Positions 1 to 10,906 of a stretch of 15,240 nt of DNA are shown in pieces. The notes beneath the pieces were generated by a model. That model searched no databases. It saw only the letters and a list, made by a program, of their open reading frames with translations, and was not told the origin of the DNA. The stretch spans positions 1 through 15,240 of the forward strand of contig CAIQEX010000103.1 of the NCBI GenBank assembly GCA_903870955.1. Reading direction: 5' to 3'. A program made the position numbers and the translations under genes. This stretch comes from an uncultured beta proteobacterium. GTDB lineage: Bacteria; Pseudomonadota; Gammaproteobacteria; Burkholderiales; Burkholderiaceae_C. Position 1 is the first letter of the stretch. Every line of letters begins with the position of its first letter.

Positions 1-718
1 AGGCATTGGCCACTTTGCTGGTGTCACTGGCTGTGGCCATCACGCGCTCAAAGGGGATGCCCAACTCGTCGGCCACAATTTGTGAGACCTTGGTGTGCAG
101 ACCCTGGCCCATCTCGGTGCCACCGTGGTTGACCTGCACGCTGCCATCGGTATAGACATGCACCAAAGCGCCCGCCTGATTGAACAGGGTGGCGGTAAAG
201 CTGATGCCGAACTTCACCGGGGTCAGCGCAATGCCGCGCTTGAGCACGCTGCTCTGGGCGTTCCAGCGTGCAATTTCCGCGCGCCGCGCGCGGTATGCGC
301 TGCTCTGTTCGAGCGTGCCGATGAGCGGTTGCAGGATGTTGTCTTCCACCCGCATCTGGTAGTGCGTGGTGTCGCGTTTGCCGCTGCCATCCGCCAGGGC
401 CTCGTCGCTGTAGAGGTTGCGCAGGCGCACATCCAGCGGGTCCATTTTGAGGGCACGGGCGATGTCGCCCATGATGGCCTCGATCAGGATCACCCCCTGC
501 GGCCCACCAAAACCGCGAAAAGCCGTGTGGCTTTGCGTATTCGTTTTGCAACGGTACGAGGCAATGTCCACATGCTCCAGGTAATAGGCGTTATCGCTGT
601 GGAAAATGGCCCGGTCAGCCACCGGACCGGACAGGTCGGCGCTAAAGCCGCAGTTGGCGGCCATCATCAGTTGCAGGGCGGTTAACCGGCCGGTGTCGTC
701 AAAGCCTGCGGTGTAGGA
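1..718 (-). pseudogene. xdhB: C-terminal continuation of xdhB (molybdopterin domain), cut off from its start by an in-frame stop; runs off the left edge
   Basis: After the TAG at 719-721 the same frame stays open for 239 codons to the window edge. It reads as normal XdhB: SYTAGFDDTG directly after the stop, FRGFGGPQG with its Arg codon at 515-517, and GGTEMGQGLHTKV near position 100. In the xanthine dehydrogenase family this Arg binds and orients the purine (Arg880 in the bovine enzyme), and the GQG region contacts the molybdenum cofactor. Spacing across the stop matches the family: HPF, three positions, Tyr, then the GF of the next strand. So one codon was changed and nothing was inserted or deleted. 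The first in-frame ATG after the stop (about 665-667) has no Shine-Dalgarno sequence, so an independent start is unlikely. The last third of the protein, including the catalytic Glu region, lies outside the window. Alternative explanation: a base-calling or assembly error in an intact gene. Confidence 0.8.
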
Positions 719-1579
719 CTATTCAAACGGGTGGCGTTTACCGGTGACCATAAAGTCGTCATCGCGGTCCAGGCGCAGCTTGATGGCCTGACCGACTTTC
801 CTGGCCGCTACCGCTGCCCACACGGCCAGATGCCCGGCCTGCGTCTCCTTGCCGCCAAAGCCTCCACCCATACGGCGGCATTCCACGCGCACAGCGTGGT
901 TGTCTATGCCCAGCGCATGCGCGACCCAGTGTTGCACCTCGCCGGGGTGTTGGGTGCTGCTGTACACCGTCCACTGGTTTTGCTCCATCGGCAGCACATA
1001 GGCAATCTGGCCCTCCAGATAAAAGTGCTCCTGGCCACCGACTTCCAGCGTGCCGCTCAGCGTGTGGCTGGCGCGCTGCAGCGCGGCAGCGGCATCGCCC
1101 CGGCGCACATGCACCGGCGGCAGCACGTAACTCTTCGCGGCCAGCGCATCTTTCACCCGCAGGATGGCGGGCAGGGGTTCAATATCGAGCTTGATCTTGC
1201 GTGCTGCACGACGGGCTTGCATCGTGGTTTTGGCGACCACGACGCCGATCACCTGGCCGACAAACTGCACGCTGTCCATGGCAAAAACGGGCTCGTCTCC
1301 GGCAAACGCCGCCAGCATCGGGTCACCGGGGATATCTTTGGCCAGGATGACATCCACCACGCCGGGCATGGCCAGCGCAGCGCTGGTATCCACGCCTTTG
1401 AGTTTGCCGTGGGCCACGTTGGAGAGGATCGGCGCCGCATGCAGGGTGCCGCGCACCTCGGGCAGGTCGTCGATGTAGTGCACCGCGCCGGCCACTTGGG
1501 CAGCAGCACTCTCGTGGTGCACCGAAATTCCCGCTGCGGGGGAAGTTGCCTGCGTCGCGGAGGAGGGGGCTTTGCTCAT
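719..1579 (-). CDS. xdhB: Xanthine dehydrogenase molybdopterin-binding subunit XdhB, N-terminal part (prematurely terminated)
   Basis: This is the large subunit of heterodimeric cytoplasmic xanthine dehydrogenase, which oxidises hypoxanthine to xanthine and xanthine to urate. The 286 residues seen here contain the aldehyde oxidase/xanthine dehydrogenase a/b hammerhead domain (about 20-130). They also contain the start of the Moco domain: GGQEHFYLEGQ (about 182-192) and GGGFGGKE (238-245), where Glu245 corresponds to the substrate-contacting Glu802 of the bovine enzyme. The family subunit is usually close to 780 residues, but this frame ends at a TAG right after GKRHPFE. The substrate Arg and catalytic Glu are therefore lost unless the stop is read through. 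The ATG at 1579 overlaps the xdhA stop (ATGA), and AAGGAG lies about 8 bases upstream, so the start is well supported and translation is coupled to xdhA. The protein as encoded should be inactive. Confidence 0.87.
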   Translation of the reverse strand: MSKAPSSATQATSPAAGISVHHESAAAQVAGAVHYIDDLPEVRGTLHAAPILSNVAHGKLKGVDTSAALAMPGVVDVILAKDIPGDPMLAAFAGDEPVFAMDSVQFVGQVIGVVVAKTTMQARRAARKIKLDIEPLPAILRVKDALAAKSYVLPPVHVRRGDAAAALQRASHTLSGTLEVGGQEHFYLEGQIAYVLPMEQNQWTVYSSTQHPGEVQHWVAHALGIDNHAVRVECRRMGGGFGGKETQAGHLAVWAAVAARKVGQAIKLRLDRDDDFMVTGKRHPFE

Positions 1580-3039
1580 GCTGCGGCTCCTTCAAGAACC
1601 AGGGTTTCCAGGGAGCTATCCGGCTTACCCTGACTTTCCAGCCAGCAGCGTTGCAGCAGATTGCCCAGCACCTCGGTGCGGTAGGCAGCAGAGGCGCGCA
1701 TGTCGCTGATGGGTGTGAATTCGGCGCGCAGCACCTGCATCGCGGCTTGTACGGTGGCCAGGTTCCAGGGTTGGCCCAGCAACGCGGCTTGTGTTTGGCG
1801 GGCGCGCACCGGTGTTGCGGCGACACCGCCAACGCCAATCGAGGCATGCTTCACCACGCCGTCGGCAATGTGCAGGTTCAGGGCCAGGCATACCGCGGAA
1901 ATGTCGTCCTCAAAGCGTTTGGAAATTTTGTAGACCCGGCTGAATTCGGCCTTTACCGCCTTGGGCACCTTGATCCAGGCCAGCACTTCGTCTTTGGCCA
2001 TCACGTTCTTGCGGTAGCCGGTGTACAGGTCCTCCAGGCGCAGCTCGCGGCTGCCGCGCGTGCTCATCAGCACTACGTTGGCACCCAGCGCAATCAGCAA
2101 TGGCATCGAATCCCCAATCGGAGAGCCGTTGGCCACATTGCCTCCCAGCGTGCCGGAGTTGCGCACCGGCAGTCCGGCAAAGCGGTGCGCAAAGCTGGCC
2201 AGTTGCGGCCGATCCGCCACCAAGGTGGCAAAGGCGTCCGCCAGTGGAACCGCAGCGCCGATGGCGATGTGGTTTTTGTAGGGTTCGATGCGGCGCAATT
2301 CCTTGACCTTGGTGACGTCCAGAATGCGCGGGAACTGCATGTGCATCTTGGTGACCCACAGCCCGACGTCGGTGCAACCAGCCACCAACTGCGCATCAGG
2401 GTGCTGGGCGCGCAACGCCAGCAGTTCTTTCAGGGTTTTGGGACTCAGGTAACTGGCGTCCGGTGCTGGCGCGTCTGGCTTAGTCTTCTTGCGCTCGGGT
2501 TTGCCCAGTTGGCGCAAATTTTCCAGCACGGCCGCCTCATTCACCCGCACGGCGGGCAAATTCTGCATGGCCTGGGCCGCGTCGAGGATGGGCCGGTAGC
2601 CGGTGCAGCGGCACAGGTTGCCGGACAGCGCGCCCTGGGCCTGGGTGCGGGAAATGGGCGAACCGGCCCGGCTTTCGTAGAGGGCAAACAGACTCATGAC
2701 AAAGCCAGGGGTGCAAAAACCGCATTGCGAGCCGTGGCACGCCACCATGGATTCCTGGACCGGATGATCTTTTAAGTCTTCCACCGTCCACAGCGCCATG
2801 CCGTCAATCGAGTGCGCCAGACGGATGCAGCTGTTGATGGCGCGCAGCTCCAGTTTGCCGCTTTTTTCTTCGCCAAGCACCACGGTACAGGCACCACAGT
2901 CGCCTTCGCCACAGCCCTCTTTGGTGCCGGTGCAATGCAGGTCCTCGCGCAGCAGGTCGAGCAGGGTGCGGTTGGCATCCACACCGTCCAGGGTGACGAT
3001 TTGGCCACGCCGTAAAAAACGCAGGGGTTTTGTATTCAT
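1576..3039 (-). CDS. xdhA: Xanthine dehydrogenase small subunit XdhA (2Fe-2S and FAD domains)
   Basis: This subunit passes electrons from the molybdenum centre in XdhB through two 2Fe-2S clusters to FAD and then NAD+. It has 487 residues, normal for XdhA. The plant-type ferredoxin domain comes first, with Cys43, Cys48 and Cys51 in GCGEGDCGAC plus Cys71. The helical 2Fe-2S domain follows, with QCGFCTPG (Cys106, Cys109) and CRCTGYRP (Cys143, Cys145). The FAD-binding domain starts near 195 and contains GGNVANGSPIGD (299-310) and RFEDDIS (375-381). The C-terminal part is the CO dehydrogenase flavoprotein-like domain. An upstream in-frame ATG would add 23 residues, but the ATG at 3039 is preferred because GAGGAA (3047-3052) sits 7 bases before it and the family N-terminus begins here. 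It is the first gene of the minus-strand operon and looks fully intact, unlike xdhB. Confidence 0.95.
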   Translation of the reverse strand: MNTKPLRFLRRGQIVTLDGVDANRTLLDLLREDLHCTGTKEGCGEGDCGACTVVLGEEKSGKLELRAINSCIRLAHSIDGMALWTVEDLKDHPVQESMVACHGSQCGFCTPGFVMSLFALYESRAGSPISRTQAQGALSGNLCRCTGYRPILDAAQAMQNLPAVRVNEAAVLENLRQLGKPERKKTKPDAPAPDASYLSPKTLKELLALRAQHPDAQLVAGCTDVGLWVTKMHMQFPRILDVTKVKELRRIEPYKNHIAIGAAVPLADAFATLVADRPQLASFAHRFAGLPVRNSGTLGGNVANGSPIGDSMPLLIALGANVVLMSTRGSRELRLEDLYTGYRKNVMAKDEVLAWIKVPKAVKAEFSRVYKISKRFEDDISAVCLALNLHIADGVVKHASIGVGGVAATPVRARQTQAALLGQPWNLATVQAAMQVLRAEFTPISDMRASAAYRTEVLGNLLQRCWLESQGKPDSSLETLVLEGAAA

Positions 3040-3124: not shown

Positions 3125-4054
3125 ATGAGAGATCAAAACCTTTTCGACAAGATAGACCTTCATCTGATAAGGGTTCTCCATACCGTGTTGACTGAACGCA
3201 GCGTTTCAAGAGCAGCTATCCGACTGGGCATGCACCAGCCGGCGGTAAGCAGCGCCCTGAAACGCCTGCGGGAATTCGCCGGAGACCCACTTTTGGTGCG
3301 CTCAGGCTCCGGCATGGTGCCTACCGTGGCGGGCCAGCGCATGCTTGAACCCAGTGCCAGCATTTTGCGTGCCGCGCAGATGCTGTTTGCCGAGGCACGC
3401 GGCTTCGAGCCCGCCAAAGCCCGCGACATCTTCCGCGTGGCCGCCGCCGATTACCTCGATCCCCTGTTTCTGCCGCATTTGGTTGCCGAGATCAAAAGCC
3501 AGGCCCCGTTGTGCGAGATTGAAATTCACCCCCTGTCTCCTGCCACCGACTACCGCACCCAGTTGGCGCAGGGCGAGGTGGATGTGGTGATCGGCAATTG
3601 GCTTTCGCCGCCGCTGGACTTGCACCTTGGGGCATTGTTTGACGATGAAGTGGTCTGCCTGGTGTCCAACAAGCACCCGGCAGTGCGACGCGGTTGGGAC
3701 CAGCAGTCCTGGCTGGAGGTCGAGCACATTGCGCCGGGTGCCACCCATCCGGGTGCCAAAGGTTTTATTGACGCGCACCTGGCCACGCTGGGGCTGCAGC
3801 GGCATATCAGTGCGCGCTGCCCCTATTTCGGGCTGATTCCGGGCATGGTGGCATCAACCTTGCTGGTGCTAACCACAAGCCGCCAGTATTGCGAACGCTT
3901 TGTAAACGCACTGCCGGTTACGATTTTGCCTTGCCCCATCGCGTTTCCAAAAATGATGTATTACCAGTTATGGCATGAACGCACGCACAGCTCGGAGTCC
4001 ATTCGCTGGTTGCGTGAGCGTGTAAAGTCCGCCGCTGCTTCGTTGAAAAAATAA
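3125..4054 (+). CDS. LysR-family transcriptional regulator
   Basis: This 309-residue DNA-binding regulator has the normal length for the family. An N-terminal winged helix-turn-helix covers about residues 8-67 (DLHLIRVLHTVLTERSVSRAA, then QPAVSSALKRLR and the GMVPT wing). The HTH style, with RSVSRAA, DPLLVR and GMVPT, is that of the NodD/LinR-like subgroup. The effector domain follows from about 100 and contains RVAAADY and the LAQGEVDVVIG segment. The ATG at 3125 is chosen because the family N-terminus begins here; its Shine-Dalgarno is weak. The gene is divergent from xdhA and ends 18 bases before the importer ATPase gene in the same direction, so it may be cotranscribed with the importer. 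By position it is the likely controller of both arms, sensing a purine or a breakdown product. The ligand cannot be read from the sequence. Confidence 0.93.
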   Translation: MRDQNLFDKIDLHLIRVLHTVLTERSVSRAAIRLGMHQPAVSSALKRLREFAGDPLLVRSGSGMVPTVAGQRMLEPSASILRAAQMLFAEARGFEPAKARDIFRVAAADYLDPLFLPHLVAEIKSQAPLCEIEIHPLSPATDYRTQLAQGEVDVVIGNWLSPPLDLHLGALFDDEVVCLVSNKHPAVRRGWDQQSWLEVEHIAPGATHPGAKGFIDAHLATLGLQRHISARCPYFGLIPGMVASTLLVLTTSRQYCERFVNALPVTILPCPIAFPKMMYYQLWHERTHSSESIRWLRERVKSAAASLKK

Positions 4055-4072
4055 AACGGGAATCTGCACACG

Positions 4073-5620
4073 ATGACACACCCCAGATTGCAACTGACCG
4101 GCATCACCAAGGCTTACCCCGGCGTGGTGGCCAATAGCGAGGTGTCTCTCACCGTGATGCCCGGCGAAACCCATGCCGTTCTGGGCGAAAACGGTGCTGG
4201 CAAGTCCACTTTGATGAAGATCATTTATGGCTCCATCAAGCCGGATGCCGGGGAGATGCGACTCAACGGGCAGCCCATCGTGATTCACAACCCGAAAGAA
4301 GCGCGCGCCAACGGCATCAGCATGGTGTTTCAGCACTTCAACCTGTTTGACACCATGACCGTGGCTGAAAACGTCTGGCTCGGTCTGGCGCGCGAGTCGC
4401 TGGAGCAGGTGACGGCCAGCATCGTTGCCAAGGCCAATGAATATGGCCTGGATATTGATCCGGCCCGACCCGTGCATACGCTGAGCGTGGGTGAAATGCA
4501 GCGCGTGGAAATCATCCGCGCCCTGTTAACCCGACCCGAGTTGTTGATCCTGGATGAGCCGACCTCGGTGCTCACCCCGCAGGCGGTGGAAAAGTTGTTT
4601 GTGGTGCTGAAGAAGCTGGCATCCGAGGGCTGCAGCATCCTCTACATCTCGCACAAACTGCATGAAATCCGTGAGCTTTGCACCGCCTGTACCGTGCTGC
4701 GCGGTGGCAAGGTCACCGGCGTGTGCAACCCGCAGGAAGAATCCAATGCCTCGCTGTCGCGCCTGATGATTGGCGCCGAGCCACCGCAACTGGAGCATCG
4801 ACCGCAACAACCGGGTGAGAGCCGTTTGACGGTGACAAACTTGAGTCTGGAGCGCGAAGACCAGTTTGGCGTGGATCTGGACGGCATCAGCCTGGACGTA
4901 CGCGCCGGCGAGGTGGTGGGCATTGCCGGTGTCTCGGGTAACGGCCAGAAGGAACTGCTGTACGCGCTCTCGGGTGAAGACTGCCGCGCCGCCACGGGTT
5001 CGATTCGCATGAAAGACAAAGACGTGTCCGCCCTGCACCCCGGCTCGCGCCGCAAACTGGGCCTGCACTTTGTGCCGGAAGAGCGCCTGGGCCGTGGTGC
5101 CGTGCCCACGTTGAGCCTGGCGCACAACCTGCTGCTGACCCGCACCGGTTCCATCTCCAACCCCAAGTTTGCGGGTGGCTGGATTAAGGTGAAGAAACTG
5201 GAAGAACATGCCGCCTCCATCATCAAGGCGTTCAACGTCAAAGCCGGTGGACCTAACGCAGTGGCCAAATCGCTTTCAGGCGGCAACCTTCAAAAGTTCA
5301 TCGTCGGCCGTGAGATCGATGCCAAACCCACGCTTTTTATCGTCTCGCAGCCGACCTGGGGCGTGGACGTCGGCGCTGCCGCCCAGATCCGTGGCGAGAT
5401 TCTGGCCCTGCGTGACGCCGGTTGTGCAGTGCTGGTGGTCAGCGAAGAACTCGAGGAACTGTTCGAAGTGAGCGACCGCCTGCATGTGATTGCACGTGGC
5501 AAGCTCTCGCCCTCGGTACCGATTGCGGAGGCTACGGTGGAAAAGATTGGTGAATGGATGAGTGGGCTTTGGGAACAGGGTAGCGCGGCGGAGCGTGGGG
5601 GGCAACATCACCATGCTTAA
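4073..5620 (+). CDS. BMP-family ABC importer, double ATP-binding protein (purine nucleoside/nucleobase type)
   Basis: This 515-residue protein has two fused nucleotide-binding domains, the arrangement found in RbsA-like and NupO/YufO-like importers. Domain 1 is complete: Walker A GENGAGKST (38-46), Q-loop Gln87, signature LSVGEMQR (137-144), Walker B LLILDE (157-162) and H-loop His194. Domain 2 (about 250-500) has a degenerate P-loop, GVSGNGQKE (286-294), without the GKS/T. It keeps a good signature, LSGGNLQK (401-408), and its Walker B-like segment ends SQPTWG rather than DEPT. This asymmetry is usual in the family and implies one main hydrolysis site. The ATG at 4073 follows the LysR gene by 18 bases and is preceded by a moderate ACGGGAA site. 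It acts on the cytoplasmic face with the two permeases downstream. The substrate assignment rests on those partners and the neighbouring xdh and deaminase genes. Confidence 0.93.
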   Translation: MTHPRLQLTGITKAYPGVVANSEVSLTVMPGETHAVLGENGAGKSTLMKIIYGSIKPDAGEMRLNGQPIVIHNPKEARANGISMVFQHFNLFDTMTVAENVWLGLARESLEQVTASIVAKANEYGLDIDPARPVHTLSVGEMQRVEIIRALLTRPELLILDEPTSVLTPQAVEKLFVVLKKLASEGCSILYISHKLHEIRELCTACTVLRGGKVTGVCNPQEESNASLSRLMIGAEPPQLEHRPQQPGESRLTVTNLSLEREDQFGVDLDGISLDVRAGEVVGIAGVSGNGQKELLYALSGEDCRAATGSIRMKDKDVSALHPGSRRKLGLHFVPEERLGRGAVPTLSLAHNLLLTRTGSISNPKFAGGWIKVKKLEEHAASIIKAFNVKAGGPNAVAKSLSGGNLQKFIVGREIDAKPTLFIVSQPTWGVDVGAAAQIRGEILALRDAGCAVLVVSEELEELFEVSDRLHVIARGKLSPSVPIAEATVEKIGEWMSGLWEQGSAAERGGQHHHA

Positions 5621-6683
5621 ACTTGAAGCCCGTCAGCAACCGTCCAGTTTCTGGAGCTATGGCTCACCCTTGTTGGCACTTCTGTGCACAGTGGTGATTG
5701 GTGTTATTTTGTTCCTGATGCTGGGCAAAGACCCCTTGCGTGGACTGCAGGTTTTCTTTTGGGAGCCACTCAAGAGCGGCTATGCACTCGGCGAATTGGT
5801 GGTCAAGGCCACGCCGCTGCTGTTGATTGCTTTGGGCCTGGCGGTGTGCTTCCGCTCCAACGTGTGGAACATTGGTGCCGAGGGCCAATACCTGCTGGGT
5901 GCAATCGCGGCCAGTGGTGTGGCGCTCATGGCTGAGAAAAACGGCAGCGCGCTGATCGTCATTCCAATTCTGCTGGCCGGTGTGCTGGGCGGTATGTTCT
6001 GGGCTGCCATTGCCGCCTTCCTGAAGGACCGCTTCAATACCAACGAGATTCTGGTCAGTTTGATGCTGGTTTACGTGGCCGTACAGGTGCTGGGCTATAT
6101 GGTCTACGGCCCCTGGAAGGACCCCAACGGCTACAACTTCCCACAGACCAAGAACTTTGAACTTGTCACCCGCATCCCGCGCCTTTTCACTGGCTCGCGT
6201 CTGTCGATAGGCGTGTTGTTTGCACTGGTTGGCGTGGGCGGCATGTGGATTTTTCTGTTCCGCACCCGTGCCGGTTTTGCGCAACAGGTGGGTGGCCTGG
6301 CTCCGGCGGCGGCACGTTATGCCGGGTTCTCCTCGCGCGGCGCGCTGTGGACGGCGTTCCTGATTTCCGGCGGTCTCGCCGGCCTGGCGGGGGCTTTGGA
6401 AGTGGCCGGTCCGATTGGACAGCTCACGCCTTATGTGCCAGCGGGCTACGGTTTTGCCGCCATCATCGTGGCCTATGTGGGGCGCTTGCATCCTGTTGGC
6501 ATGATGTTTTCGGCCATTTTGATGAGCATGTTTTATATCGGCGGTGAACTGGCGCAGTCGCGCCTGGGGCTGCCCAAGTCTTTGACCGGGGTGTTCCAGG
6601 GACTGCTGCTCTTTACTTTGCTGGGGTGCGACACGCTGGTGAATTACCGATTGGTGTGGAAGCACACCGCAGGAGCCAAATAA
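5613..6683 (+). CDS. BMP-family ABC importer, permease subunit 1
   Basis: This is an inner-membrane permease of 356 residues. Hydrophobic segments lie at about 18-38, 63-80, 92-108, 113-137, 147-165, 196-216, 244-263, 278-290, 296-312 and 326-340. The segment around FRSNVWNIGAEGQYLLG (80-96) is the hallmark of the branched-chain-type permease family used by BMP purine importers (COG4603-like). The ATG at 5613 is preferred over an in-frame one 51 bases upstream. It overlaps the end of the ATPase gene by 8 bases, has a G-rich ribosome site (about 5597-5602), and gives the normal N-terminus. The overlap implies coupled translation. It should pair with the second permease to form the channel. Confidence 0.93.
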   Translation: MLKLEARQQPSSFWSYGSPLLALLCTVVIGVILFLMLGKDPLRGLQVFFWEPLKSGYALGELVVKATPLLLIALGLAVCFRSNVWNIGAEGQYLLGAIAASGVALMAEKNGSALIVIPILLAGVLGGMFWAAIAAFLKDRFNTNEILVSLMLVYVAVQVLGYMVYGPWKDPNGYNFPQTKNFELVTRIPRLFTGSRLSIGVLFALVGVGGMWIFLFRTRAGFAQQVGGLAPAAARYAGFSSRGALWTAFLISGGLAGLAGALEVAGPIGQLTPYVPAGYGFAAIIVAYVGRLHPVGMMFSAILMSMFYIGGELAQSRLGLPKSLTGVFQGLLLFTLLGCDTLVNYRLVWKHTAGAK

Positions 6684-7606
6684 TGGATGCTTCCTACGCA
6701 CTGCTAGTCGCTGCAACGCTCAACGCCGGCACCGTGCTGGCGATCGCCTCGCTGGGCCTCTTGATCAATGAGAAGGCCGGTATCGTGAATTTGGGTGCCG
6801 AGGGCATGATGCTGTGTGCCGCTATCGCCGGGTTTGCCGCCGTGGTGGCCACCGGTAGCGACACCCTGGGATTTCTTGCAGGCATTGGTGCCGGTGCGCT
6901 GATGGCCGGTATCTTTGGTGGCCTGGTGATCTGGCTCAACACCAACCAGTACGCCACCGGATTGGCGCTCAGCCTGTTTGGTGCCGGCTTCTCGGCCTTC
7001 GCCGGAATTACCTATGTGCAGGAGAAAATTCCTGAGCGGCCACAGTTCGAGATCCCGTTCCTCACTGACATTCCGTTCTTCGGCCCGGCGCTGTTCCGCC
7101 AGCATCCGCTGGTTTATCTGACCGTGCTTTTTGCCGGTGCCCTGATCTGGTTCTTCTACCGCACCCGTGCCGGTTTGATTCTGCGCAGCGTGGGCGAGAG
7201 CCCGGAGTCAGCCCACGCGCTGGGCTATCCGGTGCGCCGCATCCGCTTGGCTGCGGTCATGGTGGGAGGCGCACTGTGCGGCCTGGCAGGTGCCTACATC
7301 TCCATTATTTACACCCCGTTATGGGTCGAGGGCATGGTGGCCGGCAAGGGCTGGATCGCGCTGGCACTCACCACCTTTGCCACGTGGCGACCGGCGCGTG
7401 TGCTGCTTGGTGCCTACCTGTTTGGCGGCGTTACGATGCTGCAGTTTCACCTGCAGGGCATCGGTGTGGACATTCCCAGCCAGTTGCTCAGCACCTTGCC
7501 CTACCTGTCGACCATCATCGTTCTGGCCATGATTTCACGGAATCCGCGTTGGATTCGTATTAATATGCCCGCTGCTATTGGCAAGCCCTTTTACCCGGGC
7601 TCCTGA
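6683..7606 (+). CDS. BMP-family ABC importer, permease subunit 2
   Basis: This second inner-membrane permease has 307 residues and is almost entirely hydrophobic, with about eight to ten membrane segments. Near its start, EKAGIVNLGAEGMML (30-44) parallels the NIGAEGQYLLG motif of permease 1, as expected for the paired COG1079-like subunit. Its ATG shares one base with the permease 1 stop (TAATG at 6681-6685), and AGGAG at 6671-6675 gives an excellent ribosome site, so this start is firm. FRQHPLVYLTVLFAGALIWF (138-157) and the GKGWIALALTTFA stretch (221-233) are typical of the family. It works with permease 1 and the ATPase to import the ligand delivered by the lipoprotein downstream. Confidence 0.93.
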   Translation: MDASYALLVAATLNAGTVLAIASLGLLINEKAGIVNLGAEGMMLCAAIAGFAAVVATGSDTLGFLAGIGAGALMAGIFGGLVIWLNTNQYATGLALSLFGAGFSAFAGITYVQEKIPERPQFEIPFLTDIPFFGPALFRQHPLVYLTVLFAGALIWFFYRTRAGLILRSVGESPESAHALGYPVRRIRLAAVMVGGALCGLAGAYISIIYTPLWVEGMVAGKGWIALALTTFATWRPARVLLGAYLFGGVTMLQFHLQGIGVDIPSQLLSTLPYLSTIIVLAMISRNPRWIRINMPAAIGKPFYPGS

Positions 7607-7650
7607 AACTTTTTCGCCGTAACTTTCCCTCATCACATAAAGGACTTCAC

Positions 7651-8805
7651 ATGACAGATTTGCAAAAACGTTCGTTGTTGAAAATTGCAGCCTTGACCGC
7701 CGTGGCAAGCGCAGCACTGGTCGGTTGCGGCAAGAAGGAAGAGCCCGCTCCTGCGCCCGCACCGGCACCTGCCGCCTCTGCGCCCGCTGCCAAGGCCGAG
7801 CCACTGAAGATCGCTTTTGCCTATGTCGGCCCTGTGGGCGACGGCGGCTGGACCTTTGCACACGACTCCGCACGCAAGGCGCTGGAAAAAGAATTCGGCG
7901 ACAAGATCGTCACCTCTTTCGTGGAAAACGTGCCCGAGTCTGCTGACGCCGAACGCGTCATCCGCGACATGGCCACCCAAGGCAACAAGCTGATTTTCGG
8001 CACCACCTTTGGCTACATGGAAACCATGCTCAAAGTGGCTCCCGATTTCAAGGACGTGAAGTTTGAGCACGCCACCGGTTACAAGACTGCAGACAACCTG
8101 CGCACCTACGACAGCCGCACCTACGAAGGCGCGTACATGGCGGGTGTGATTGCCGGCAAGATGACCAAGAGCAACACGCTGGGTGTGGTGGCCTCGGTGC
8201 CAATTCCTGAAGTGATCCGCAACATCAACAGCTTTACGCTGGGCGCTCAAAGCTCCAACCCCAAGGTCAAGACCAAGGTGGTTTGGGTGAACGAGTGGTT
8301 CAACCCACCGAAAGAAACCGAAGCCGCAACCAGCCTGATCAACGGCGGTGCCGACGTTCTGTTCCAGAACACCGACTCTCCCGCTGTGCTCAAGACTGCG
8401 CAAGACAAGGGCAAGCGCGCCTTTGGTTGGGATTCCGACATGACAGCCTACGGCCCCAAGGCCCACCTGGCATCCAGCGTGATCAACTGGGGTCCTTACT
8501 ACATCAAGGCCACGCATGACTTTATCGATGGCAAGTGGGCTACCGGTCAAAGCTGGTGGGGTGTGAAGGAAGGCGCGATTGACATCGTCTCCATCGCCGA
8601 AGACGTGCCTGCTGAAACCAAGGCCAAGGTCGAAGAGGTCAAGGCCGGTCTGAAGGATGGCAGCTTCGTCATCTGGAAGGGCCCAATTGTTGACAACACC
8701 GGCAAAGAGCAGATCAAGAAGGGTGAAGCCGCTGACGACAAGTTCCTCGGTGGTCTGAATTTCTACGTCAAGGGCGTAGAAGGCAAGATCCCTGGCGGAA
8801 AATAA
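7651..8805 (+). CDS. BMP-family substrate-binding lipoprotein of the purine ABC importer
   Basis: This is a 384-residue periplasmic binding protein. Residues 1-26 form a lipoprotein signal with lipobox ALVGC, so Cys26 would be lipidated and the protein anchored to the membrane. A flexible Pro/Ala-rich linker (about 32-48) follows, then the Bmp/PnrA fold from about 51. The motif GPVGDGGWTFAHD (60-72) is the ligand-side loop of the family; the Trp may stack on a flat ring. NTDSPAV (240-246) and FGWDSDMTAYGP (258-269) are other family landmarks. PnrA-type members bind purine nucleosides, but this GDGGW variant might prefer a free base; that is inference. AAGGA lies about 8 bases before the ATG. 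A 44-base gap separates it from permease 2, larger than elsewhere in the operon, and a strong terminator follows it. Confidence 0.93.
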   Translation: MTDLQKRSLLKIAALTAVASAALVGCGKKEEPAPAPAPAPAASAPAAKAEPLKIAFAYVGPVGDGGWTFAHDSARKALEKEFGDKIVTSFVENVPESADAERVIRDMATQGNKLIFGTTFGYMETMLKVAPDFKDVKFEHATGYKTADNLRTYDSRTYEGAYMAGVIAGKMTKSNTLGVVASVPIPEVIRNINSFTLGAQSSNPKVKTKVVWVNEWFNPPKETEAATSLINGGADVLFQNTDSPAVLKTAQDKGKRAFGWDSDMTAYGPKAHLASSVINWGPYYIKATHDFIDGKWATGQSWWGVKEGAIDIVSIAEDVPAETKAKVEEVKAGLKDGSFVIWKGPIVDNTGKEQIKKGEAADDKFLGGLNFYVKGVEGKIPGGK

Positions 8806-8870: not shown

Positions 8871-9863
8871 ATGATTGAAAAAGAACTTTGGCATCCCGTC
8901 GCGTTGAGTGAGGCGGTGACGGATGACCCACTTGCTGTCGAACTGCTGGAGCGCCATGTGGTGCTGTGGCGTGACAGCAGTGGCGCAGTGCTGGCCTGGG
9001 CTGACAGATGCCCCCACCGGGGTGCGCGGCTGTCAATGGGCCGGATTTGCGCCGGACGTTTGGAGTGTCCCTACCACGGTTGGCAGTTTGAATCGAGTGG
9101 CCGCTGCGTGCATGTGCCGGCACTGCCTGACTTTGTGCCACCCGCAGGCCATGCCACCAGAACCTACGTTTGCGCCGAGCAATACGGGTTGATCTGGGTG
9201 CGTATGGTGGCATCGCACGACGCGGTCACGCACGCCATGCCCGCGTTCGAAGCGGAACAGGACGCGCAACTGCGCAAGGTCAACTGCGGCCCGTATGACG
9301 TGGCGACCAGCGCACCACGGATCGTGGAAAATTTTCTGGACATGGCGCACTTCGGCTTTGTGCATGAGCATTGGCTGGGTAGCCGCGATGCCGCACAAAT
9401 TGCCGACTACACCGTGGAGCCCACCCACACCGGTATCCGCGCCACCGGTTGCCGGGCGGTGCAACCCAAAAGCAATTTGCACTCCACCACTGCTGCGCAA
9501 GTGGAATACACCTATGAGGTGACCGCGCCCTATGCCGCGGTGCTGACCAAAATTCCGGAGGCCGGCAGCGTGGCGGTAGCGGGCTGGCGCGAGGCCATCG
9601 CCCTGTTTATCTGCCCTATGGGCCATGAACGCAGCCGCGTCTGGTTCCGGCTGGCGGTGGCCGACTTTGAGTCCCTGGACCAGACCCTGCGCGATTTCCA
9701 GCACACCATCTTCAAGCAAGACCAGCCGGTGCTGGAATCGCAAAATCCCAAGCGCCTGCCGCTGGATTTGCGCGCCGAAGTACATACCTCGGCGGACAAG
9801 GCGTCCAGCGCCTACCGGCGTTTTTTAAGTCAGCAATCCATTACCTTTGGAGTGATTCCATGA
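8871..9863 (+). CDS. Rieske [2Fe-2S] non-heme iron oxygenase, alpha subunit (NdmA/VanA-like, candidate demethylase)
   Basis: This is a 330-residue oxygenase with two domains. The N-terminal Rieske cluster is C-x-H-x16-C-x2-H: CPHRG (Cys47, His49) and CPYHGW (Cys66, His69). The catalytic domain has NFLDMAHFGFVH (154-165), where Asp157 is the bridging residue and His160 and His165 bind mononuclear iron. The third iron ligand is probably an acidic residue in the FKQDQPVLESQNP region (281-293). Size, N-terminus (LWHPV), the YGLIW segment and the DQPVLESQNP element resemble the one-component demethylase group: methylxanthine N-demethylases NdmA/NdmB and vanillate O-demethylase VanA. It is less like two-subunit ring dihydroxylases. 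It needs an electron-donor reductase, not encoded here. It overlaps the deaminase gene by 4 bases, which ties it to purine metabolism. The substrate is unknown; removal of a methyl group from a modified purine is a hypothesis. The ATG at 8871 has only a weak G-rich site upstream. Confidence 0.88.
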   Translation: MIEKELWHPVALSEAVTDDPLAVELLERHVVLWRDSSGAVLAWADRCPHRGARLSMGRICAGRLECPYHGWQFESSGRCVHVPALPDFVPPAGHATRTYVCAEQYGLIWVRMVASHDAVTHAMPAFEAEQDAQLRKVNCGPYDVATSAPRIVENFLDMAHFGFVHEHWLGSRDAAQIADYTVEPTHTGIRATGCRAVQPKSNLHSTTAAQVEYTYEVTAPYAAVLTKIPEAGSVAVAGWREAIALFICPMGHERSRVWFRLAVADFESLDQTLRDFQHTIFKQDQPVLESQNPKRLPLDLRAEVHTSADKASSAYRRFLSQQSITFGVIP

Positions 9864-10906
9864 GCCACGTGCGCCTCGTAAAACCCATCGCCGCAGAGCG
9901 TATGCCCGCGCTGCTGCGCGCCATGCCCAAGGCTGAGTTGCATATGCACATCGAGGGTTCGCTGGAGCCCGAACAGATGTTTGCCCTGGCCCAGCGCAAC
10001 CACGTGCCGCTGGCCTACCCCAACGCGCAGGCCGTGCGTGAGGCCTATGTGTTTGACAACCTGCAGAGCTTTCTGGACATCTACCACGCCGGCACCCTGG
10101 TGCTCAAGACAGAGCAGGATTTTTACGACATGGCCTGCGCCTATTTGCAGCGTGCCCAAGCCGACAACGTGACCCACACCGAGCTTTTTTTCGACACCCA
10201 AACGCATACCGGCCACGGCCTGAGCGCCGAGATCGTGGTGAATGGTTTGCACCGTGCCTGCATGGACGCGCCGGCCAGGTTCGGCATGACCGCCTCGCTC
10301 ATCCTGTGTTTTTTGCGCCACCTAAGCGAAGAAGAAGCCTTCGAATGCCTGGAGCAGGTGCTGCCTCTGCGTGACAAGATTGTCGGCATTGGTTTGGCCA
10401 GCAGCGAAGTCGGGCACCCACCCGAGAAGTTTGCCAAAGTTTTTGCACGTGCGAAACAACTGGGTTTTCGTCTCGTGGCCCACGCGGGCGAGGAGGGACC
10501 ACCGGCCTATATCTGGGGCGCGCTCGATGTGCTGAAAGTGGAGCGCATTGACCATGGCGTGCAGTCCATGAATGACCCGGACCTGATCAAACGGCTGGTG
10601 CAGGACCGCATTCCACTCACGGTCTGTCCGCTCTCCAATCTCAAGCTGCGTGTGTACCCATCTTTGACGCAGCATGCGATTGGCCGCATGTTGGAGGCAG
10701 GGTTGGTCGCCACCATCAACTCGGACGATCCTGCCTACTTTGGCGGCTACATCAACGAGAACTTCACACAGACCTTTAGCGCCCTGCAATTGGGCAGCCA
10801 ACAAGCCTACCAACTGGCGCTCAACAGCTTCAATGCCAGCTTTATTGAGGCTTCTGAACGGGCACGCCACATCGAAAAACTGGACGCTGTTTTTGACACC
10901 TTCTAA
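9860..10906 (+). CDS. add: Adenosine/adenine deaminase family protein, probably adenine deaminase (zinc hydrolase)
   Basis: This 348-residue zinc-dependent TIM-barrel deaminase would convert adenine (or adenosine) and water to hypoxanthine (or inosine) and ammonia. Metal and catalytic residues are all present: LHMH (His28, His30), AHAGEEG (His208, Glu211), RIDHGV (His232) and NSDDP (Asp289). The specificity region reads SSEVGHPPEKF (181-191). Together with the REAYVFDNLQSFLDIY segment (60-75), this is the pattern of the adenine deaminase subgroup (fungal Aah1, Pseudomonas PA0148), not of classical adenosine deaminase, which has a GDE-type motif. The symbol add is therefore used in the loose family sense. 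The start is firm: GGAG at 9849-9852 lies 7 bases upstream, and the ATG overlaps the oxygenase stop (ATGA). Hypoxanthine is the natural substrate of XdhAB, which links it to the minus-strand operon. Confidence 0.92.
   Translation: MSHVRLVKPIAAERMPALLRAMPKAELHMHIEGSLEPEQMFALAQRNHVPLAYPNAQAVREAYVFDNLQSFLDIYHAGTLVLKTEQDFYDMACAYLQRAQADNVTHTELFFDTQTHTGHGLSAEIVVNGLHRACMDAPARFGMTASLILCFLRHLSEEEAFECLEQVLPLRDKIVGIGLASSEVGHPPEKFAKVFARAKQLGFRLVAHAGEEGPPAYIWGALDVLKVERIDHGVQSMNDPDLIKRLVQDRIPLTVCPLSNLKLRVYPSLTQHAIGRMLEAGLVATINSDDPAYFGGYINENFTQTFSALQLGSQQAYQLALNSFNASFIEASERARHIEKLDAVFDTF

Follow-up and report, generated by a model that had tools for sequence, protein, structure and literature searches.

Does an amber codon in the middle of xdhB record a very recent loss of purine oxidation, a stop that is suppressed or read through, or a base error in the assembled sequence? 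The question is raised by the window analysed here, the whole of contig C103 (15,240 bases) from a 4,388,102-base draft genome in 787 contigs with 86.84% completeness and 5.58% contamination. These were the options named in the original prediction and they are the right ones: recent loss and error both stay open, and the evidence presented below speaks against suppression or readthrough.

One codon of xdhB is replaced by TAG

On the reverse strand the sequence reads ...GGTAAACGCCACCCGTTTGAA TAG TCCTACACCGCAGGC..., within a frame whose ATG (at 1579) overlaps the xdhA stop (Table 1). There are 286 codons before the TAG and 239 after it, and past it the unchanged frame is open as far as the contig end. 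The match of the upstream piece to the NCBIfam xdhB profile TIGR02965 extends through residue 286, and that of the downstream piece begins at its own residue 2, with a single profile position lost at the stop (272 on one side and 275 on the other, of 758) and both pieces collinear. Neither interrupted piece reaches the profile's cut-off of 849.5 bits; P0001, a whole XdhB of 776 residues in the protein database that is 97% identical to the window protein, scores 1131.8 bits. The alignment with P0001 is gapless and identical at 510 of 526 positions (277/286 upstream, 233/239 downstream). Because both pieces align with P0001 without a gap, a chance open frame is ruled out, and the collinear alignments bear out the prediction of an in-frame TAG at 719-721 without change in length.

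The same prediction described xdhB as otherwise intact, which stands for residues 1-526. Beyond these the gene is cut, window base 1 being the contig end, 718 bases from the stop, and a search of the assembly for the last 250 residues (527-776) did not find them on other contigs. A close second copy of xdhB was likewise not present in the assembly, where the remaining matches are 27-33% identical. An xdhC-type gene scoring above its cut-off lies on another contig (C234), adjoining a gene that is presumably of the membrane-bound urate-oxidising type. In sequence, domain order, the adjoining xdhA and the motifs flanking the stop, the interrupted gene is like XdhB of the two-subunit bacterial xanthine dehydrogenase (TIGR02965; 1jro); it differs in having TAG for one codon, an open product of 286 residues against 776 in P0001, and a tail that is not assembled.

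Table 1. Coordinates of the features discussed, with strand and supporting evidence.
Feature	Position	Strand	Evidence
In-frame TAG, codon 287 of xdhB	719..721	-	Sense codon in 109/109 other loci, Tyr in 105
xdhB upstream part, residues 1-286	722..1579	-	349.1 bits to TIGR02965 (positions 3-272); Pfam Ald_Xan_dh_C, then MoCoBD_1 (first half)
xdhB downstream part, residues 288-526, ends with contig	2..718	-	378.3 bits to TIGR02965 (positions 275-505); MoCoBD_1 (second half), then MoCoBD_2 (start)
Glu 245 in GGGFGGKE, upstream of the stop	845..847	-	Aligned to 1jro_B position 232
Arg 323 in PVADRAIF, downstream of the stop	611..613	-	Aligned to 1jro_B position 310
Arg 355 in AFRGFGG, downstream of the stop (codon of the original prediction)	515..517	-	Reading of the xdhB frame
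xdhA (xanthine dehydrogenase small subunit), open, no internal stop	1576..3039	-	TIGR02963, 590.7 bits (cut-off 467)
LysR-type regulator, divergent from xdhA, open	3125..4054	+	Best families under their cut-offs
ABC importer with ATPase, two permeases and BMP-type binding protein, open	4073..8805	+	Best families under their cut-offs
Rieske-type oxygenase, between importer and adenosine deaminase	8871-9863		Weak family match, 60.4 bits (cut-off 600)
Adenosine deaminase, open	9860..10906	+	NF006850, 536.3 bits (cut-off 419)

The interruption falls inside MoCoBD_1, between profile positions 140 and 144 of 244. From the trio formed by the active-site Glu, the Arg and the C-terminal Glu, the window encodes Glu 245 and Arg 323; the last of the three, residue 732 in P0001, falls past the contig end. 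The reference for these assignments, 1jro_B, is chain B of the Rhodobacter capsulatus enzyme, with an active-site role attributed to its position 232 and substrate binding to the Arg at its position 310. The stop had been said to split Glu 245 from the purine-binding Arg; the separation is correct, but the codon chosen for the Arg (515-517) is not, the residue aligned to position 310 being encoded at 611-613. Since Arg 323 also falls after the stop, the conclusion holds despite the wrong Arg. Homology supports the claim that the product cannot work as a molybdopterin subunit: the 286-residue protein, without most of the molybdopterin-binding region, should be inactive. The side chain at 287 itself is not essential in the family, because the residue aligned to it in 1jro_B is Ile; the truncation is what counts.

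Relatives carry a sense codon at the same position

Codon 287 is read as Tyr in 105 of the 109 other loci compared and as Phe (2), Cys (1) or Val (1) in the rest, this set being 114 loci less the window itself and four distant paralogues below the E-value, with some genomes counted twice via two collections. Among 120 database proteins the same position is Tyr in 118 and Phe in 2. The alignment with relatives, suggested beforehand as a way to see the ancestral codon, thus returns Tyr nearly always, and the stop lies where all 109 loci have a sense codon, as in a nonsense pseudogene. The nearest loci with named records belong to uncultured Burkholderiales and Comamonadaceae genomes and to Rhodoferax lacus.

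In a survey of the genus, xdhB was matched in 94 of 103 genomes. Once the window's own genome and another whose sole match is a 31% paralogue are set aside, 92 genomes have an orthologue, many of them fragmentary, and in all of these the matched part of xdhB is free of in-frame stops. Matches in the wider family were obtained in 253 of 299 genomes; among the 150 matches listed, 148 are without a stop, one is the window and one is genome G189, whose apparent internal TGA turned out to be the natural end of the protein at residue 775.

Near-identical truncated proteins were sought in the protein database by scoring the 8000 candidates sharing most words; the 114 that passed the threshold include none, the best being 91% identical. 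A search for an independent copy of the downstream piece matched three proteins, with 76% identity at best. At the DNA level, the window and the compared loci have no long stretch in common at the stop, the maximum being 15 bases before it.

No clear sign of relaxed constraint after the stop

In pairwise comparisons with 11 relatives, dN/dS ranged from 0.039 to 0.18 for the upstream part, from 0.079 to 0.152 for the downstream part and from 0.115 to 0.276 for xdhA, values that are dominated by the long branches to these relatives and can exclude an old pseudogene only. In the comparison with L035, the closest locus, dN/dS is 0.087 downstream, about twice the 0.039 found upstream, both being low; with L038 the two are equal (0.095 downstream, 0.091 upstream). 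Taking the majority residue of 119 other proteins as a crude proxy for the ancestral state, the 15 residue differences between the window and P0001 were polarised to P0001 in 10 cases, to the window in one and to neither in four. Six of the differences fall after the stop, with none polarised to the window and three to neither. Neither dN/dS nor the polarised differences give a clear sign of relaxed constraint after the stop, which a young allele need not show. It follows that the stop is young, or that it is not real.

Elsewhere in the window, the 11 other frames checked are all open, in agreement with the earlier statement that xdhA, the regulator and the importer show no decay.

A recent nonsense allele or a consensus error

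We give about an even chance to a very recent single-base nonsense allele. Under this reading, a young mutation of one base would have arisen in xdhB of a Rhodoferax-like population, translation would end after residue 286, midway in the first molybdopterin-binding domain, and cells with the allele would have lost the molybdenum subunit and hence xanthine dehydrogenase, with xdhA, the regulator, the importer and the deaminase retained. Both the reality of the stop base and the loss of the enzyme are what we infer here, in favour of which count the preserved frame, the sense codon in relatives, the lack of a close second copy, the reading of TAG as a stop (see below) and the outcome of a screen for other interrupted genes. 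Mutations reported in PMC8190622, which may or may not include a stop, are cited beside this reading.

The screen looked for in-frame stops flanked on either side by coding sequence in 60 stretches of the assembly, of which 51 were readable (577,759 bases of ACGT, C103 included). It flagged 44 stops, and when their flanks were read only the one in xdhB was judged to lie inside a single gene; an earlier screen of 20 stretches had flagged six, including the one in xdhB. The five hardest to judge among the others of the 44 (10 pieces) gave one Pfam domain in one piece, and no family extended across any stop. A single intragenic case argues against frequent nonsense errors, in a screen that is blind to frameshifts and missense errors.

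Bacterial pseudogenes with one premature stop are a known general kind, which the window resembles in its single nonsense change without change in length. Unlike a typical case, it shows no clear further decay, and its stop base is known from the consensus only. The lack of decay is not diagnostic of a mutation, because a consensus error would look alike. It is possible, at somewhat less than even chances, that the organism has a whole xdhB and that the TAG is a low-coverage sequencing error or a chimera of strain variants. The fragmentation, incompleteness and contamination of the draft agree with such an error, and one error is, as a matter of judgement rather than computation, well within expectation for a genome of this quality. 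The contig break inside xdhB and the missing residues 527-776 fit low coverage or a mixture of strains and add some weight. The lack of clear decay, the genus survey, with no in-frame stop in the matched xdhB of 92 other genomes, and the existence of the 97% identical whole P0001 also count on this side; the lack of a near-identical truncated protein among those above threshold counts against the mutation. Against an error stand the readable bases of the screen, where no other stop-interrupted gene was recognised, and the 11 other open frames of the window.

Either way this is an ordinary case, a recent catabolic gene loss or an assembly error, with no hint of a novel biological mechanism. A real allele would be one more recent catabolic gene loss in a natural population, and an error would be a warning against calling gene loss from a single draft genome; little new is learned from either.

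TAG is read as a stop

Readthrough or suppression of the TAG, giving full-length XdhB, perhaps at a controlled level, is improbable. It would account for the coding constraint that persists past the stop, but release factor 1 is present in the assembly (481.4 bits, cut-off 423.25) and the hybrid histidine kinase gene of the window itself terminates in TAG, on which grounds a recoded TAG was rejected. Among open frames of at least 350 codons in the sampled stretches, antisense frames counted in, 63 of 267 end in TAG.

The search for amber suppressor tRNAs, which had been proposed as a check, found none with a CTA anticodon in the 21 tRNA loci recovered, an incomplete set without tRNA-Tyr. A pattern search for an amber tRNA gave 62 hits, 30 of which were examined as loci without revealing a tRNA; one of the remaining 32 (C423:663) falls in an already recovered tRNA-Arg. 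The 62 hits are no excess, since a reversed control pattern gave 222. The best match to the pyrrolysine synthetase PylS in the assembly scored 25.3 bits against a cut-off of 178.15. Within this incomplete assembly, then, neither a suppressor or pyrrolysine system nor loss of release factor 1 was found, and with no stop at codon 287 in any of the 109 other loci nothing is conserved at the site, as it would be for a recoded UAG. A suppressor tRNA could sit on the missing sequence; a lineage-specific amber stop suppressed by such a tRNA, with the level of xanthine dehydrogenase set by readthrough, is in our view very improbable. A two-piece enzyme, with the downstream part started from the ATG at 667, 17 codons past the stop, and assembling with the upstream part, is hardly credible given a cut inside MoCoBD_1 and no split at this site in the 109 other loci.

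Interrupted xdhB sequences in other genomes

Breaks of other kinds were observed elsewhere in the genus. In draft genome G020, one of the 92 with an orthologue, about 70 extra bases between residues 596 and 597 split xdhB (L270, G020:C236:8400-11300; 827-898). A single contig of G076 (G076:C135:3385-5490) has residues 234-775 on one strand and 50-214 on the other, an arrangement suggestive of inversion or misassembly; xdhB is therefore broken or misassembled in other drafts too. A 31% identical XdhB paralogue in a further genome of the genus (G021:C204:4922-7216) has one TGA counted inside the match, which may be its natural end.

Among the 114 database fragments mentioned above, 59 align to their own C-terminal end with at most one residue over. 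Six of these 59 cleanly ending fragments stop aligning at residue 285, and at every other position at most two do so. Five of the six (P0133, P0158, P0163, P0177 and P0186) have one residue beyond 285 and so end just before residue 287; these ends could be contig ends or (recurrent) single-base events at the Tyr codon.

Purine-related neighbours

If the stop is real, cells with genes for purine import and deamination would halt at hypoxanthine or xanthine. The importer of the window matches models of putative B6 transporters, under their cut-offs; from the context of xdhA and adenosine deaminase, nucleosides or purines are a more likely substrate for it than B6. The Rieske-type oxygenase may act on a purine or a similar compound.
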